Position numbers and translations under genes: made by a program. From Actibacterium sp. MT2.3-13A (GTDB lineage Bacteria; Pseudomonadota; Alphaproteobacteria; Rhodobacterales; Rhodobacteraceae): a DNA stretch of 64,000 nt. Location: contig NZ_JAGSOU010000002.1 in assembly GCF_018139985.1 (NCBI RefSeq), positions 1 to 64,000 on the forward strand. The letters run 5' to 3'. Of this stretch, positions 15,292 to 33,514 are shown one piece after another. Below the pieces are notes generated by a model. That model was not told where the DNA came from. It did not search any database and saw only the letters and a program-made list of their open reading frames with translations. The stretch's first letter is position 1. Each line of letters begins with the position of its first letter.

Positions 15292-15900
15292 TCAGAACAG
15301 GATCTCGATCCGGCCGTCCCCCAGGGTGACGGCCGGCGCGCGCCCGGCCTCCGCCGCGGCCAGCGGCAGCAGGGCGAATTGGACCTCGGCGGCGGACAGG
15401 CCCGCGGCCGGCGCGGGATCGTCCAGCTGCCGCCACAGCCGCGGCTCAATGCGGATACGCGGCCCCGCGCCGATCAGCCGCCAGTGCCCGCCCGCCTCGG
15501 CCAGCCGGATCGTGCCGCCCTGGGGCAGGGCGCAGACCATCCCGAGGACCAGCAGCAGCGCCAGCTTGGCGTCGCGGCGGCCGATCGCGGCGGGCAACTC
15601 GGTGCTCAGGGCGATGCGGCCGCCGTCGAAACTGTCGGCCAGCACCGCGGCCAGTTCGGCGCCGGACAGCGCCTGGCCCTCGGTCGCCGCGCCGAAGGCG
15701 ATGCGGAAGAACCGGATCCAGGCATTGGCGCTGTCCACGCTCTGGGCGATCAGCGCCAGCTCCGGCGCGACGCCGGGCGTCTTGCCGGTCAGGCTCAGCA
15801 GCTCCAGCCCATTGCCGATGGCGCCGAGAGGGTTGATAAGGTCATGACAGATGCGCGAGCCGACCAGCGCGCTGATATCGGGACGGGAACGCGTGGTCAC
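15292..15900 (-). CDS. chpT: Histidine phosphotransferase ChpT
   Basis: A 202-residue dimeric phosphotransferase that in alphaproteobacteria passes phosphate from the hybrid kinase CckA to the response regulators CtrA and CpdR. The diagnostic helix RICHDLINPLGAIGNGLELL (residues about 17-36) carries the phosphorylated His19. The C-terminal half is a degenerate, non-ATP-binding kinase-like fold (GGTIRLAEAGG, LPLAAAEAGR). The length matches the family. It is divergent from the DUF3553 gene. A perfect CtrA-type box lies about 250 bases upstream, before olsB. Confidence 0.88.
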   Translation of the reverse strand: MTTRSRPDISALVGSRICHDLINPLGAIGNGLELLSLTGKTPGVAPELALIAQSVDSANAWIRFFRIAFGAATEGQALSGAELAAVLADSFDGGRIALSTELPAAIGRRDAKLALLLVLGMVCALPQGGTIRLAEAGGHWRLIGAGPRIRIEPRLWRQLDDPAPAAGLSAAEVQFALLPLAAAEAGRAPAVTLGDGRIEILF

Positions 15901-15927
15901 CCTGAGACCTCACGGAAGGACAGTGAC

Positions 15928-16110
15928 ATGAACGATCTGAACGCGATGCTGGAGCCGGGCATGTTCGTCCGCCACCCCACGCGCCCGGACTGGGGGCTGG
16001 GGCAGGTGCAGTCCAACATCAACGGCCGTATCACCGTCAATTTCGTCGAAGCCGGCAAGGTGGTGATCGATGGCGCGCGGGTGGCCCTCATTCCGGTTTT
16101 CGACTCCTGA
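15928..16110 (+). CDS. DUF3553 domain-containing small protein
   Basis: A 60-residue protein starting at an ATG with GGAAGGA upstream. It matches the small DUF3553 family: MFVRHPTRPDWGLGQVQS, then ITVNFVEAGK. This is a compact beta-barrel-like module in which a W-G-x-G-x-V turn and an F-E-x-G-K strand are conserved; related modules occur in UvrD/PcrA-type helicase tails. Free-standing copies are common in Rhodobacteraceae. It is divergent from chpT with 27 bases between starts. The function is not established. Confidence 0.8.
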   Translation: MNDLNAMLEPGMFVRHPTRPDWGLGQVQSNINGRITVNFVEAGKVVIDGARVALIPVFDS

Positions 16111-16144
16111 ACCCTTTACTGCGGCCAGCGTGAGCATGAATTCA

Positions 16145-16159
16145 TTAACAAAGGGTTAA
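16145..16159. promoter_or_regulatory. Perfect CtrA-type box (TTAA-N7-TTAA) upstream of olsB
   Basis: TTAACAAAGGGTTAA lies in the 145-base gap between the DUF3553 gene and olsB. It matches the full CtrA consensus TTAA-N7-TTAA of alphaproteobacteria. The ChpT gene, whose product helps phosphorylate CtrA, lies just upstream. Binding is inferred from the motif. Confidence 0.6.
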
Positions 16160-16255
16160 CAAATCCCGTTCCGCGGCGCGCAGCGCCCGGTTGCAAAATT
16201 CGCGGCGCCTGCCTAAAACCTCGGCACCCGCCGCAACCGGAGGCTTTCTTCGCCC

Positions 16256-17035
16256 ATGCGCCCCCCTGAACCCCATTTCGAGCTGCGCCTGGCCCGGACG
16301 CCCGAGGATCTGCGCGCCGCCCAGCGTCTGCGCTACGAGGTCTTCGTGGCGGAACTCGGCGGCGATGGCGCGCTGGTCGATCACGACGCGCGGCTGGAGC
16401 GCGACGAATTCGACCCGTTCTACGACCACCTGCTGCTGATCGACACCCGCCGCGACGCGGCGGCGCTCGACCATGTGGTCGGGGTCTACCGCCTGCTGCG
16501 CGACGACCAGGCCGCGCGCCTGGGGCGATTCTATGTCGAGGACGAATACGACCTGTCGGTTCTGAAACAGAGCGGCCGCAGGCTGCTGGAGCTGGGCCGC
16601 TCCTGCCTGCACCGCGACTATCGGGGCGGCACGGCGATGTATCAGCTGTGGCAGGGGCTGGCCGGCTATGTGCTGGAGCACGGGATCGAGGTTCTGTTCG
16701 GCGTGGCCAGCTTCCACGGCACGGATATCGAGGCGCTGAGAATGCCGCTGTCCTACCTGCATCACGCCCATCTCGCCCCGCCGGAACTGCGCGTGCGCGC
16801 GCAGCCGGCGCATTTCCAGCGGATGGACCTGGTGCCGGCGGAACGGATCGACCGCAAGGCGGCGATGCTGGCGACGCCGGCGCTGATCAAGGCCTATCTG
16901 CGGCTCGGCGGGTTTGTGGGCGAGGGCGCCTATGTCGATCGCGCCTTCAATACCACCGATGTCTGCCTGGTGATGGACACCGAGCGGATGAACGCCAAGA
17001 CGCGCGCGCTCTACACCAGGGGCGTGTCGCGGTGA
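16256..17035 (+). CDS. olsB: L-ornithine N-alpha-acyltransferase OlsB
   Basis: A 259-residue GNAT-like acyltransferase that joins a 3-hydroxy fatty acid from acyl-ACP to ornithine, making lyso-ornithine lipid. Family features: QRLRYEVFVAELGG near 22-35, VVGVYRLLRDDQA near 77-89, LELGRSCLHRDYRGG near 112-126, and a substrate-pocket region containing FGVASFHGTD. The stop overlaps the GTG start of olsA, so the pair is an operon in reaction order. A perfect CtrA-type site lies 97 bases upstream. Confidence 0.9.
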   Translation: MRPPEPHFELRLARTPEDLRAAQRLRYEVFVAELGGDGALVDHDARLERDEFDPFYDHLLLIDTRRDAAALDHVVGVYRLLRDDQAARLGRFYVEDEYDLSVLKQSGRRLLELGRSCLHRDYRGGTAMYQLWQGLAGYVLEHGIEVLFGVASFHGTDIEALRMPLSYLHHAHLAPPELRVRAQPAHFQRMDLVPAERIDRKAAMLATPALIKAYLRLGGFVGEGAYVDRAFNTTDVCLVMDTERMNAKTRALYTRGVSR

Positions 17036-17856
17036 GCCCGACCTGGGATCCGGGCGACACGCCGCCGCAGCCCGCGCCGCAGGGCCTCGACTGGCTGCGC
17101 GTGGCCTGGCGCGGGGGGGCGCTGGCGGCGATCACGTTCGGCTGCCTGGGCCTGCTGCTGCTGGTGCGGCTGTTCGAGCGGCCGCTCTGCGGCTGGCACC
17201 GCCCGGTGACGCCCTACATCACCCAGTTCGTCTGCCGCATGGCCTTCGTCATCCTGCGCATCCCGTTCACGGTGCGCGGCCACCTGATGCGCGAGCGCGG
17301 CGCGGTGGTGGCCAATCACGCCAGCTGGCTCGACATCTTCGCGCTGAACGCGCGCAAGCGGATCTATTTCGTCTCCAAGTCCGAGGTCGCGGGCTGGCCC
17401 GGCATCGGCTGGCTGGCGCGCGCCACCGGCACGGTGTTCATCAACCGCAAGGGCCGCGAGGCGCGCGCCCAGAAGGACCTGTTCGAGGCGCGGCTGGGGG
17501 CCGGCCACAAGCTGCTGTTCTTTCCGGAGGGCACCTCGACCGACGGTCAACGCGTGCTGCCCTTCAAATCCACGCTCTTCGCGGCCTTCTTTTCTGACCA
17601 CCTGCGCGAGTTCATGCATGTCCAGCCGGTGACGGTGATCTATCGCGGCCCCGAGGGGGGCGACCCGCGCTTCTACGGCTGGTGGGGCGAGATGGAATTC
17701 GGAGAGCACCTGCTGAAGGTGCTGGCGGCGCGCGAGCAGGGCTCGGTCGAGCTGGTCTATCACCCGCCGCTGCGGGTGGCCGATTTCGCGGACCGCAAGG
17801 CGCTGGCGAAATACTGCGAGGAGATGGTGCGCAGCGCCCTGCCGTCCGACGGGTAG
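17032..17856 (+). CDS. olsA: Lyso-ornithine lipid O-acyltransferase OlsA (PlsC family)
   Basis: A 274-residue membrane acyltransferase that adds the second acyl chain to lyso-ornithine lipid. One N-terminal membrane helix (about 27-48) precedes the PlsC domain with the NHASWLD (HX4D) catalytic motif and the acceptor motif FFPEGTSTDG. It starts at GTG overlapping the olsB stop (GTGA); the upstream in-frame alternatives fall deep inside olsB. Two tandem hairpins follow immediately. Confidence 0.9.
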   Translation: MSPTWDPGDTPPQPAPQGLDWLRVAWRGGALAAITFGCLGLLLLVRLFERPLCGWHRPVTPYITQFVCRMAFVILRIPFTVRGHLMRERGAVVANHASWLDIFALNARKRIYFVSKSEVAGWPGIGWLARATGTVFINRKGREARAQKDLFEARLGAGHKLLFFPEGTSTDGQRVLPFKSTLFAAFFSDHLREFMHVQPVTVIYRGPEGGDPRFYGWWGEMEFGEHLLKVLAAREQGSVELVYHPPLRVADFADRKALAKYCEEMVRSALPSDG

Positions 17857-31155: not shown

Positions 31156-32127
31156 TCAGCGGTTGTTCTGATAGTTGACCGCTTCGTTGTTGGTCCCCGT
31201 CTGGAGGATCGCGCTCCGGTTGTTGGTGCCGAGCTGGAGATTGGCCGCCGAGTTGCTGGCCGCGCCCATCGCGCCGAAGGGCGTGCCGCCGCCGGGCAGC
31301 ACCGTCGTCCCGATCGGAAGCCCGTCGCCGGTGCCGAACATGTCCGTGGTGAAGCTCTTCGTCGGGTCGATCGTGGTCAGCGACGCGACCAGGGTGGTGC
31401 CGCCCTGGTTGATGTAGGACTGGTTGGCGCCGCCTTCCTGCAGCGAGGCGACGGTGTTGTTCGTGCCGTCCTGGAAGCTGACCGAGGTGTTGCTGTTGCC
31501 CACCTGGGCATGGGCGGCAAGATTGCCCTGCTGCGCGGTGTCGCCCGACTGCAGGGCGATCGCGGCGTTGTTGTCGCCCAGCTGTGCGATGGCCGCCGCG
31601 TGATCGTTGCCGTCCTGCACGGCCGCGGCCGTGTTGCCGTCGCCGACCTGGGTGATGGCCGCCTCGTGGTTGGCGTAGGACTGGCTGACCAGGGCCGCGT
31701 TGTTGTCGCCGACCTGCAGCGTCGCCGACTCGTTCCAGCCGCCGATCTGCATGTTGACGGCGGCGTTGTCGTTGCCCAGCTGGAACTGGACGTTGCGGCT
31801 GAAGTTGCCGGCGCCGCCGGGATCGAGGCCGATGCTCGGGTTGTTGTTGGCGCCTTGGGCGTTGGCCGTGCCGCCGGCGATCACGCCGTCGCCGACCTCG
31901 GCCGAGGCCAGTTCCTGGTCGCCGCCGGTCAGGCCGTTGTCACCCACTGCGCTGGCGCCCTCGGTGGCGACGACCGCCTGGGTGCTGTCATCGGAGTTGA
32001 TCGAAGATGCCTGTGTGCCTGCGGTTGCCGAGGCCTCGTCGCCGGGGCCGGTCCCGGCGGTTTCGGCGGCGAAGGCCGCCCCTGCAAGCGAGAGTACAGC
32101 CGTGGTCGTGAGAAAAATACGTTTCAT
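31156..32127 (-). CDS. csgA: Curlin-repeat protein, CsgA-like major amyloid subunit
   Basis: A 323-residue secreted protein with a signal peptide to about residue 20. Residues about 21-108 are a Gly/Ala/Ser/Asp-rich region. From about 112 to 240 come six or more curlin repeats with the Q-x-G-x-x-N-x-A pattern (QFQLGNDNAAV, TLQVGDNNAAL, ITQVGDGNTAA, IAQLGDNNAAI, HAQVGNSNTSV). After a 50-residue linker two more repeats close the protein (NLQLGTNNRSAI, LQTGTNNEAV). This is about twice the length of E. coli CsgA. An AGGAAGGAAG ribosome site precedes the ATG. It is the first gene of the curli operon. Confidence 0.88.
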   Translation of the reverse strand: MKRIFLTTTAVLSLAGAAFAAETAGTGPGDEASATAGTQASSINSDDSTQAVVATEGASAVGDNGLTGGDQELASAEVGDGVIAGGTANAQGANNNPSIGLDPGGAGNFSRNVQFQLGNDNAAVNMQIGGWNESATLQVGDNNAALVSQSYANHEAAITQVGDGNTAAAVQDGNDHAAAIAQLGDNNAAIALQSGDTAQQGNLAAHAQVGNSNTSVSFQDGTNNTVASLQEGGANQSYINQGGTTLVASLTTIDPTKSFTTDMFGTGDGLPIGTTVLPGGGTPFGAMGAASNSAANLQLGTNNRSAILQTGTNNEAVNYQNNR

Positions 32128-32218: not shown

Positions 32219-32233
32219 TTAACTGCTAGTTAA
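32219..32233. promoter_or_regulatory. Perfect CtrA-type box upstream of the curlin gene
   Basis: TTAACTGCTAGTTAA (TTAA-N7-TTAA) lies 92 bases upstream of the csgA-like start, in the gap shared with the divergent small-protein gene. It is a full match to the CtrA consensus. Confidence 0.6.
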
Positions 32234-32382: not shown

Positions 32383-32679
32383 ATGCCGAAACTGATTTCG
32401 ACCCTGGTTTTGATCGCGGGATCTGCGCTCTTCGGTGCCCAGGCTGCCGCCGATACCCGGGCCACCGTTCCCCAGATCTCCGGGGGCGACGGCGCCTTCG
32501 TCGTCCAGGTGCCCGGCGGGCAGCGCCAGATGGCGCCGATCAACCGCGGCCAGACCCCGCCGCGCCGCGCCGCACAGACGCCGCCGCCGCGCCGCGATTT
32601 CATCCTTGATTTCGGCGGGCAGGGCGCGCCGTTTACCCTGCCGTCGGTGCGCGAGGGCGTGCGGATCTCGCTCAACTGA
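32383..32679 (+). CDS. Small proline/arginine-rich secreted protein, divergent from curli operon
   Basis: A 98-residue protein with a signal peptide (hydrophobic to about residue 20, cleavage near AAA-D). The mature part has a short ordered start (VPQISGGDGAFVVQVPGG), a Pro/Arg-rich middle (about 50-72), and an end FILDFGGQGAPFTLPSVREG. CGGAGA lies upstream of the ATG. It is not CsgE by length or sequence. The position between the curlin gene and the LuxR regulator gene suggests a curli-related or matrix role. No family was recognised. Confidence 0.65.
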   Translation: MPKLISTLVLIAGSALFGAQAAADTRATVPQISGGDGAFVVQVPGGQRQMAPINRGQTPPRRAAQTPPPRRDFILDFGGQGAPFTLPSVREGVRISLN

Positions 32680-32738
32680 GCACGCCACGACGGGGCTCTC
32701 TGGCGTCAGCGCGTTTACAAAACGGGCCGGTTGCGTTA

Positions 32739-32753
32739 TTAACTTTGAATTAA
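32739..32753. promoter_or_regulatory. Perfect CtrA-type box upstream of the LuxR regulator
   Basis: TTAACTTTGAATTAA (TTAA-N7-TTAA) lies 60 bases upstream of the chosen start of the LuxR-family gene, in an AT-rich promoter-like stretch. Confidence 0.6.
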
Positions 32754-32812
32754 GAGTTCATTTTCTGTTTTTGATTAATGGTGCATTGTGTGTTCCGGGG
32801 GGGGCGTATTTT

Positions 32813-33514
32813 GTGGTGTCTGGAGCATCCGGACCCGTAGACTGGGTCGTTCTATCGAATAGTCGTCTTGAGCAGATGGCGCTGGCGCGGGTTGCAGAAA
32901 AACTCCGGGGCGCGCGGGGGGCGTGTGCCGATCACGACCGCGAGTCGCTCAATGCGATGCTGCCCAAGGGCGCCGAGCCGTCGCTCATCCTGACCTGCCT
33001 GGGCCGGCAGGATCTGCAGAACGGCAGGCTGGAGGAACTGGCCGGGCGTTTCCCGAAGGCGCGGGTGGTTGTCTTCCTTCAGGCGGGGCCGCCGCCCGCT
33101 GCCATCGACATGTTGCCCGACAACGTTCGCGCCATCATGTGCTCCGATTGCACCGAGAGACAGATCTGCCAGGCGATCGAGCTGGTCGCCACGGGCTACC
33201 TGCTCCTGCCGGGCGCCTCCGGCGGCGCGCAGGCCGGCCACGGGGCGGTTCCCGGCGTGGTTCCCGCACCCGACCTTCCTGCCGTCAGGCCGCCGGAACT
33301 GACCGGGCGTGAGTGGCAGGTCTGCTGCGAGGTTTCCAAGGGCTCTTCGAACAAGCAGATCGCGCGGCGCCTGGGCATCGCCGTCAACACGGTGAACGTG
33401 CATGTCGGCTCGATCATGCGCAAGCTCGGGGTCCACAACCGGACGCAGATCGCATTGCGCATCGCCAACGGGGTAGCCCGGAAAAAGATCGCCGAGCACC
33501 GGACCGATTTTTGA
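32813..33514 (+). CDS. LuxR-family (CsgD-like) transcriptional regulator
   Basis: A 233-residue regulator. The N-terminal 130 residues look like a degenerate receiver domain (WVVLSNSRLEQMALARVAEKL at the start, later RAIMCSDCTERQICQAIELVATGYLLLP). The C-terminal domain is a LuxR helix-turn-helix (LTGREWQVCCEVSKGSSNKQI, then VNTVNVHVGSIMRKLGVHNRTQ). No clear phospho-acceptor Asp is seen, as in CsgD. The GTG at 32813 is chosen because a G-rich ribosome site precedes it and because the first strand of the receiver fold begins just after; the first ATG (32876) would cut into the domain. Confidence 0.8.
   Translation: MVSGASGPVDWVVLSNSRLEQMALARVAEKLRGARGACADHDRESLNAMLPKGAEPSLILTCLGRQDLQNGRLEELAGRFPKARVVVFLQAGPPPAAIDMLPDNVRAIMCSDCTERQICQAIELVATGYLLLPGASGGAQAGHGAVPGVVPAPDLPAVRPPELTGREWQVCCEVSKGSSNKQIARRLGIAVNTVNVHVGSIMRKLGVHNRTQIALRIANGVARKKIAEHRTDF

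Follow-up and report, generated by a model that had tools for sequence, protein, structure and literature searches.

In Rhodobacterales, the CckA-ChpT-CtrA relay controls motility, gene transfer agents, and pili, and CtrA is itself phosphorylated by ChpT. The CtrA-dependent promoters of Rhodobacter (Cereibacter) sphaeroides, as described in the excerpts of PMC6180460 used here, carry a box near the -35 position that lies 23 or 24 nt from the transcription start, which is a purine, together with an invariant A at -11; the targets of these fla2 promoters are flagellar. Members of the relay also have CtrA sites in their own promoters. According to the portions of the two reports on which we draw, sites are predicted at flagellar genes, ctrA, cckA, and divL in D. 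shibae (PMC4046655), and sites at ctrA and cckA are reported for Ruegeria KLH11 as well, where ctrA is autoregulated and cckA is not (PMC3692519). A CtrA site before chpT was looked for in KLH11 and none was found (PMC3692519, in the part cited), and chpT is unchanged in exponential phase when ctrA is deleted in D. shibae (excerpts of PMC4046655 and PMC7232146). Transcriptional control of chpT is described for C. sphaeroides, in which XrpA, an XRE repressor, binds the control regions of both ctrA and chpT; those authors state that they knew of no earlier report placing chpT in the CtrA regulon (PMC11999139, in part). No CtrA site at chpT is named in excerpts of PMC6473078, PMC2877005, or PMC7200025.

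Here we examine the chpT locus of Actibacterium sp. MT2.3-13A in a window of 64,000 nucleotides, by which we mean the whole stretch of DNA that was analyzed. The chpT gene, encoding the histidine phosphotransferase of the relay, occupies positions 15292-15900 on the minus strand with a GTG start at 15900. Its product matches Pfam HPTransfase at 78.4 bits (cut-off 22.9), which supports the earlier reading of this neighbor as chpT, and scores 104 and 96.7 bits against two NCBIfam ChpT models, both below their cut-offs. Head to head with chpT lies a small DUF3553 gene (15928-16110, plus strand; Pfam PF12073, E 5.5e-27, above the Pfam cut-off), followed by a gap (16111-16255) and by two genes on the plus strand: olsB, for L-ornithine N-alpha-acyltransferase (16256-17035, ATG at 16256; NCBIfam NF052554, 456 bits, cut-off 350), and olsA, for lyso-ornithine lipid O-acyltransferase (17032-17856; NCBIfam NF052552, 441 bits, cut-off 300). 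Both chpT and DUF3553 lie beside olsB in 68 of 69 loci selected by olsB, our own included, and DUF3553 and olsB lie beside chpT in all 54 further loci selected by chpT; with gene order almost always kept, broken synteny failed as a means to separate chpT from olsB. The sole exception, L044 (G149), is also the only one of the 142 loci used for gaps that is missing DUF3553, and the 400 nt upstream of its olsB hold no box with at most one mismatch. A second, distant OlsB-like match is present in our genome (G000:C12:11579-12235, L070; 34% identity), and two OlsB matches occur in most genomes searched.

The DUF3553-olsB gap contains a symmetric CtrA-type box, TTAACAAAGGGTTAA, at positions 16145-16159, which matches TTAA-N7-TTAA exactly, has no strand, and is kept in part of the family. 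The C directly after it fits the full CtrA pattern TTAA-N7-TTAA(C). As the original prediction had it, the repeat is perfect and its distance from the chpT start is 245 nt; on the other side, the olsB ATG follows after 96 nt. The window contains three exact matches in all, compared with a mean of 0.01 and a maximum of 1 in 100 shuffles. The other two lie at 32219-32233, before a curlin-repeat gene (31156-32127, minus strand), and at 32739-32753, at a LuxR-type regulator inside the ORF 32435-33514 (plus strand); possibly they place an adhesive fibre under CtrA control. Genome-wide excess is absent: the exact pattern occurs at 10 places in the 3.6-Mb genome, compared with 14 for the reversed control AATT-N7-AATT. 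Frequency alone therefore proves nothing, and the comparative evidence is the strong part of the case.

The genome does encode CtrA (NF045991 at C22:135879-136550; 424 bits, cut-off 350). One full box lies 15 nt before a CckA-like kinase gene, whose best NCBIfam matches are to CckA (395 bits where the cut-off is 1000, for a sequence cut at the locus end), and another lies 434 nt upstream of ctrA, between this gene and mnmA. Further full boxes are found before a gene for a PAS-domain protein adjoining regB, which we guess, without model support, to be DivL-like; some 840 nt ahead of an ORF that matches FliK weakly (at 21.8 bits, short of the cut-off); upstream of cpaB and of a small ORF that looks pilin-like by eye and has no family match; at a ParA gene; and at G000:C50:21062-21076 (L079), between a gene that we read from its ORF as carA-like and a family-2 glycosyltransferase gene with an MshEN domain.

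To assess conservation, we assembled gaps from 142 loci, of which 139 remained after removal of L044 and two gaps alike in their last 100 nt, and 132 after removal of seven near-duplicates (more than 40% shared 12-mers). Adding 54 further gaps, none of which was dropped, gave 186; for 73 short loci the end of the retrieved sequence served to approximate the olsB start. Among the 132 non-redundant gaps, 15 contain a perfect N7 box and 54 a box with at most one mismatch (100 shuffles averaged 0.13 and 3.39, with maxima of 1 and 9), while the other spacings from N2 to N14 yield 0-3 perfect boxes and 2-23 within one mismatch. The full set of 186 gives 21 perfect boxes and 76 with at most one mismatch at N7, 3 and 32 at N6, many of the N6 matches being shadows of N7 boxes, and 0 and 20 at N8. 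When the count starts 15 nt before the gap and four short gaps are left out, 21 of 182 gaps have a perfect box (shuffles: mean 0.3, largest 2) and 85 have one with at most one mismatch (mean 6.0, largest 12), or just under half. On these spacing controls and shuffles we reject a chance origin of the box. Together with the pattern itself, the N7-specific conservation supports the reading of the repeat as probably of CtrA type, and the observation from which this work started holds and is stronger than was claimed.

The first 260 nt of olsB coding sequence in 119 loci contain no perfect box and one box with at most one mismatch (shuffles 0 and 1.1). In the 260 nt to the left of the gap, running through DUF3553 towards chpT, 17 of 186 loci have a box with at most one mismatch and one has a perfect box (shuffles 3.3 and 0.05), a mild enrichment that we ascribe to putative contributions from DUF3553 codons. 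On a quick OlsB tree (117 rows; 59 of 114 inner branches open), presence of the box changes 25 times, compared with a mean of 34.7 and a minimum of 29 for shuffled labels, so that the box partly follows kinship yet has been gained and lost often. Shuffled labels come close to the values for the perfect box (10 changes compared with 11.5) and for the box with a -10 on its left (12 compared with 12.5).

Because the box is symmetric, its direction can be read only from the flanks. We therefore scanned both sides of a set of 74 boxes, which leaves out boxes that begin over 3 nt ahead of the gap or lie within 55 nt of olsB. On the chpT side of the 46 boxes that lie 11 nt or more beyond the DUF3553 stop, an A stands 14 nt from the box in 31 and an A..T pair at 14 and 18 nt in 16 (0 of 1000 shuffles for each). 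The same type of scan on the olsB side shows no peak, its best value of 6 of 46 being equalled by 307 of 1000 shuffles. The signal persists for boxes at least 19 nt past the stop (A in 16 of 28, 0 of 1000 shuffles; A..T in 7 of 28, 12 of 1000) and in the wholly non-coding subset at least 22 nt past it (A in 14 of 26 and A..T in 7 of 26, 4 of 1000 shuffles each). When the A..T rule is applied at 13 or 14 nt to all 74 boxes, 25 satisfy it chpT-ward versus 9 olsB-ward, although only 7 of the 20 perfect boxes are among those that follow the rule. The 28 boxes no more than 10 nt from the DUF3553 stop lack a chpT-ward -10 in 26 cases and have one in 2; an A at 13 nt is present in 21 of these 28, within conserved DUF3553 codons.

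As a positive control, we examined boxes before ctrA in 30 family loci (L208-L237) that were returned with loci from the 61 genomes searched. The proximal box has A..T at 13 nt towards ctrA in 23 of 30 loci and away from it in 1 of 30; the best distance on the away side is 11 nt, in 9 of 30. The main peak thus lies at 13 nt before ctrA and at 14 nt before chpT, and the box facing ctrA has a geometry similar to that on the chpT side. A distal box, mostly TTCA..TTAA, is also conserved in the ctrA-mnmA gap: 29 of the 30 loci have it, some 420-475 nt ahead of ctrA. It has -10-like elements on both sides, with A..T towards ctrA at 13 nt in 15 of 29 and towards mnmA at 12 nt in 15 and at 14 nt in 8 of 29.

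By this family geometry, the putative chpT-facing -10 in the window is CACGCT (16127-16132, minus strand), whose A and T lie 14 and 18 nt from the box edge. It has the 13/14-nt spacing but is a poor -10 hexamer. The related locus L001, which comes from Actibacterium naphthalenivorans DSM 105040 and also has a perfect box, shows CAAGCT at this place, and 10 of the 12 positions lying 7 to 18 nt from the box are the same in both sequences; on the olsB side the two have a GC-rich block in common as well. Family geometry and the R. sphaeroides fla2 promoters together predict a chpT start at the minus-strand A at 16120, 24 nt from the box, and a 220-nt chpT leader (15901-16120, minus strand) antisense to DUF3553. 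This leader folds no better than shuffled sequence (z 0.96), and a scan for consensus promoters and terminators on both strands of 15850-16300 found nothing.

We consider it somewhat better than an even chance that the box is the CtrA-binding element of a chpT promoter that is transcribed leftward through DUF3553. Phosphorylated CtrA would bind at 16145-16159, taking the place of a -35 element, and RNA polymerase would use the weak -10 at 16132-16127 of the minus strand; the transcript would start near 16120 and run leftward, antisense through DUF3553, into chpT. Since CtrA is phosphorylated by ChpT, CtrA-driven chpT would close a feedback loop at the phosphotransfer step. We also counted in favor of this reading the full boxes at the CckA-like kinase gene and in the ctrA-mnmA gap of the same genome. 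The arrangement would resemble the fla2 promoters in its box near -35, its A at -11, and its distance from box to start, but the target would be chpT rather than a flagellar gene, and the transcript would cross a divergent small gene (PMC6180460, in part). It would differ from the KLH11 and D. shibae relays in bringing chpT under CtrA, and from XrpA in the regulator concerned (PMC3692519, PMC4046655, and PMC11999139, in part).

Some of the gaps carry a plain sigma-70 promoter motif in the same orientation. TTGACA (at least 5 of 6 matches)-N16-[TC]ANNNT faces chpT in 30 of 186 gaps, compared with a mean of 2.5 and a maximum of 8 in shuffles of the chpT-facing strand, and faces olsB in 4 of 186. 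In the 260 nt to the left of the gap, chpT-ward promoters of the TTGACA type remain at shuffle level (20 shuffles), and the only chpT-facing promoter signal in excess, among the pattern types searched, therefore lies behind DUF3553. A recurrent CACAACC motif was rejected as the site of a second regulator, as on the other strand it sits, in many of the gaps inspected, in the spacer of a leftward promoter of the TTGACA-N16-TAGCCT type. The original prediction had also allowed for a promoter within the gap that could be assigned to no gene. This came close: the gap does appear to hold a promoter, but one that apparently belongs to chpT. Judged from sequence, it is probably a chpT promoter antisense over DUF3553, with either a CtrA box or a sigma-70 -35 according to lineage. 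L181 (G035), which is probably D. shibae, has no box with at most one mismatch and carries a chpT-facing TTGACA-N17-TAGCTT, in agreement with the published D. shibae chpT data.

The same family promoters bear on whether CtrA would activate or repress. If the box overlapped a leftward sigma-70 promoter at its spacer and -10, it could serve chpT in negative feedback, a reading that we consider unlikely. Such an arrangement is seen in L041, L052, and L083, whose ChpT proteins are 58, 56, and 51% identical to that of the window: each has a perfect box overlapping the -10 of a chpT-facing TTGACG-N16-TAAGG[TA], which would suit repression. More widely, 7 of the 74 boxes have a TTGACA with at least 5 of 6 matches at N16 from the overlapped -10, while no other spacer between 8 and 25 gives more than one, and CtrA repressor half-sites overlap the -10 in Caulobacter (excerpts of PMC6180460). 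In the window, however, the hexamer 16 nt upstream of the overlapped -10 is ACGGGA, a 2 of 6 match to sigma-70, and both the window and L001 fit the geometry of an activator rather than that of a repressor. Activation is tentatively favored over repression in this species. The computation itself establishes the box, its conservation in relatives, the one-sided -10 geometry, and a separate olsB promoter motif; from these we infer that CtrA binds the box, that transcription runs towards chpT in this species, and that binding activates it.

On the other side of the box, the original prediction had raised CtrA control of ornithine-lipid synthesis. The window has a putative olsB -35 (TTGCAA, 16191-16196) and -10 (TAAAAC, 16214-16219), both on the plus strand and separated by N17, which follow the motif TTGC[AC][AT]-N16-19-TA. 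Of the 186 gaps, 119 have this motif in the olsB direction, and its spacer is N17 in 97; in the window, olsB would be read from this separate sigma-70-like promoter (16191-16219). CtrA might act on it from upstream and so link the synthesis of ornithine lipids to the relay, or act on both sides, since a single box can serve two divergent promoters, as at fliF2/fliL2 (PMC6180460, in part). The 31 nt between the box and the -35 would suit this, as the distances in the 45 gaps with both elements, variable as they are, cluster at about 20-33 nt (median 27). Their full range is nevertheless 11-117 nt, no helical phasing of the box relative to the -35 was found, and no olsB-ward -10 is conserved at a fixed distance from the box, there being no olsB-ward peak of an A at 13-14 nt. 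We found no link of CtrA or ChpT to ornithine lipids or olsB in the open-licence literature, one Brucella review included, within the text of these sources available to us. Action on olsB, alone or in addition, therefore seems improbable to us, the proposed link between CtrA and ornithine lipids is weakened by the analysis, and chpT is more likely than olsB to be the target. Least probable, and in our view a slim prospect, is that the repeat is the site of another regulator such as FnrL or Dnr, or a chance relic. In D. shibae, a Dnr/Fnr site (TTAAC-N4-GTCAA) has one half-site in common with CtrA, and a prediction places FnrL at chpT (both from parts of PMC7232146), but the N7 spacing is specific among the spacings compared, and TTG[AG][TC]-N4-[AG][TC]CAA, a strict pattern that weaker Fnr sites could escape, occurs nowhere in the 186 gaps and the 200 nt to their left.

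Taken across the family, the reading of the box as part of a chpT promoter may extend further, a proposal that we make tentatively and rate a little short of an even chance. In a large share of these bacteria, chpT would be a direct CtrA target through a promoter concealed on the far side of the divergent DUF3553 gene, and lineages would have repeatedly swapped the -35 between a sigma-70 hexamer, with chpT independent of CtrA and the loop left open in the way described for D. shibae, and a CtrA box, which closes it; every chpT transcript would also be an antisense RNA to DUF3553. The question of whether the relay governs its own middle step, chpT, is relevant to its ability to latch. The published D. 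shibae work places chpT outside the loop; here, if the reading is true, the relay of this species, and of a share of related ones, would be self-regulating. If the promoter works as proposed, the wiring of the relay would differ among relatives by one promoter element that is predictable from sequence, so that the question can be tested species by species.
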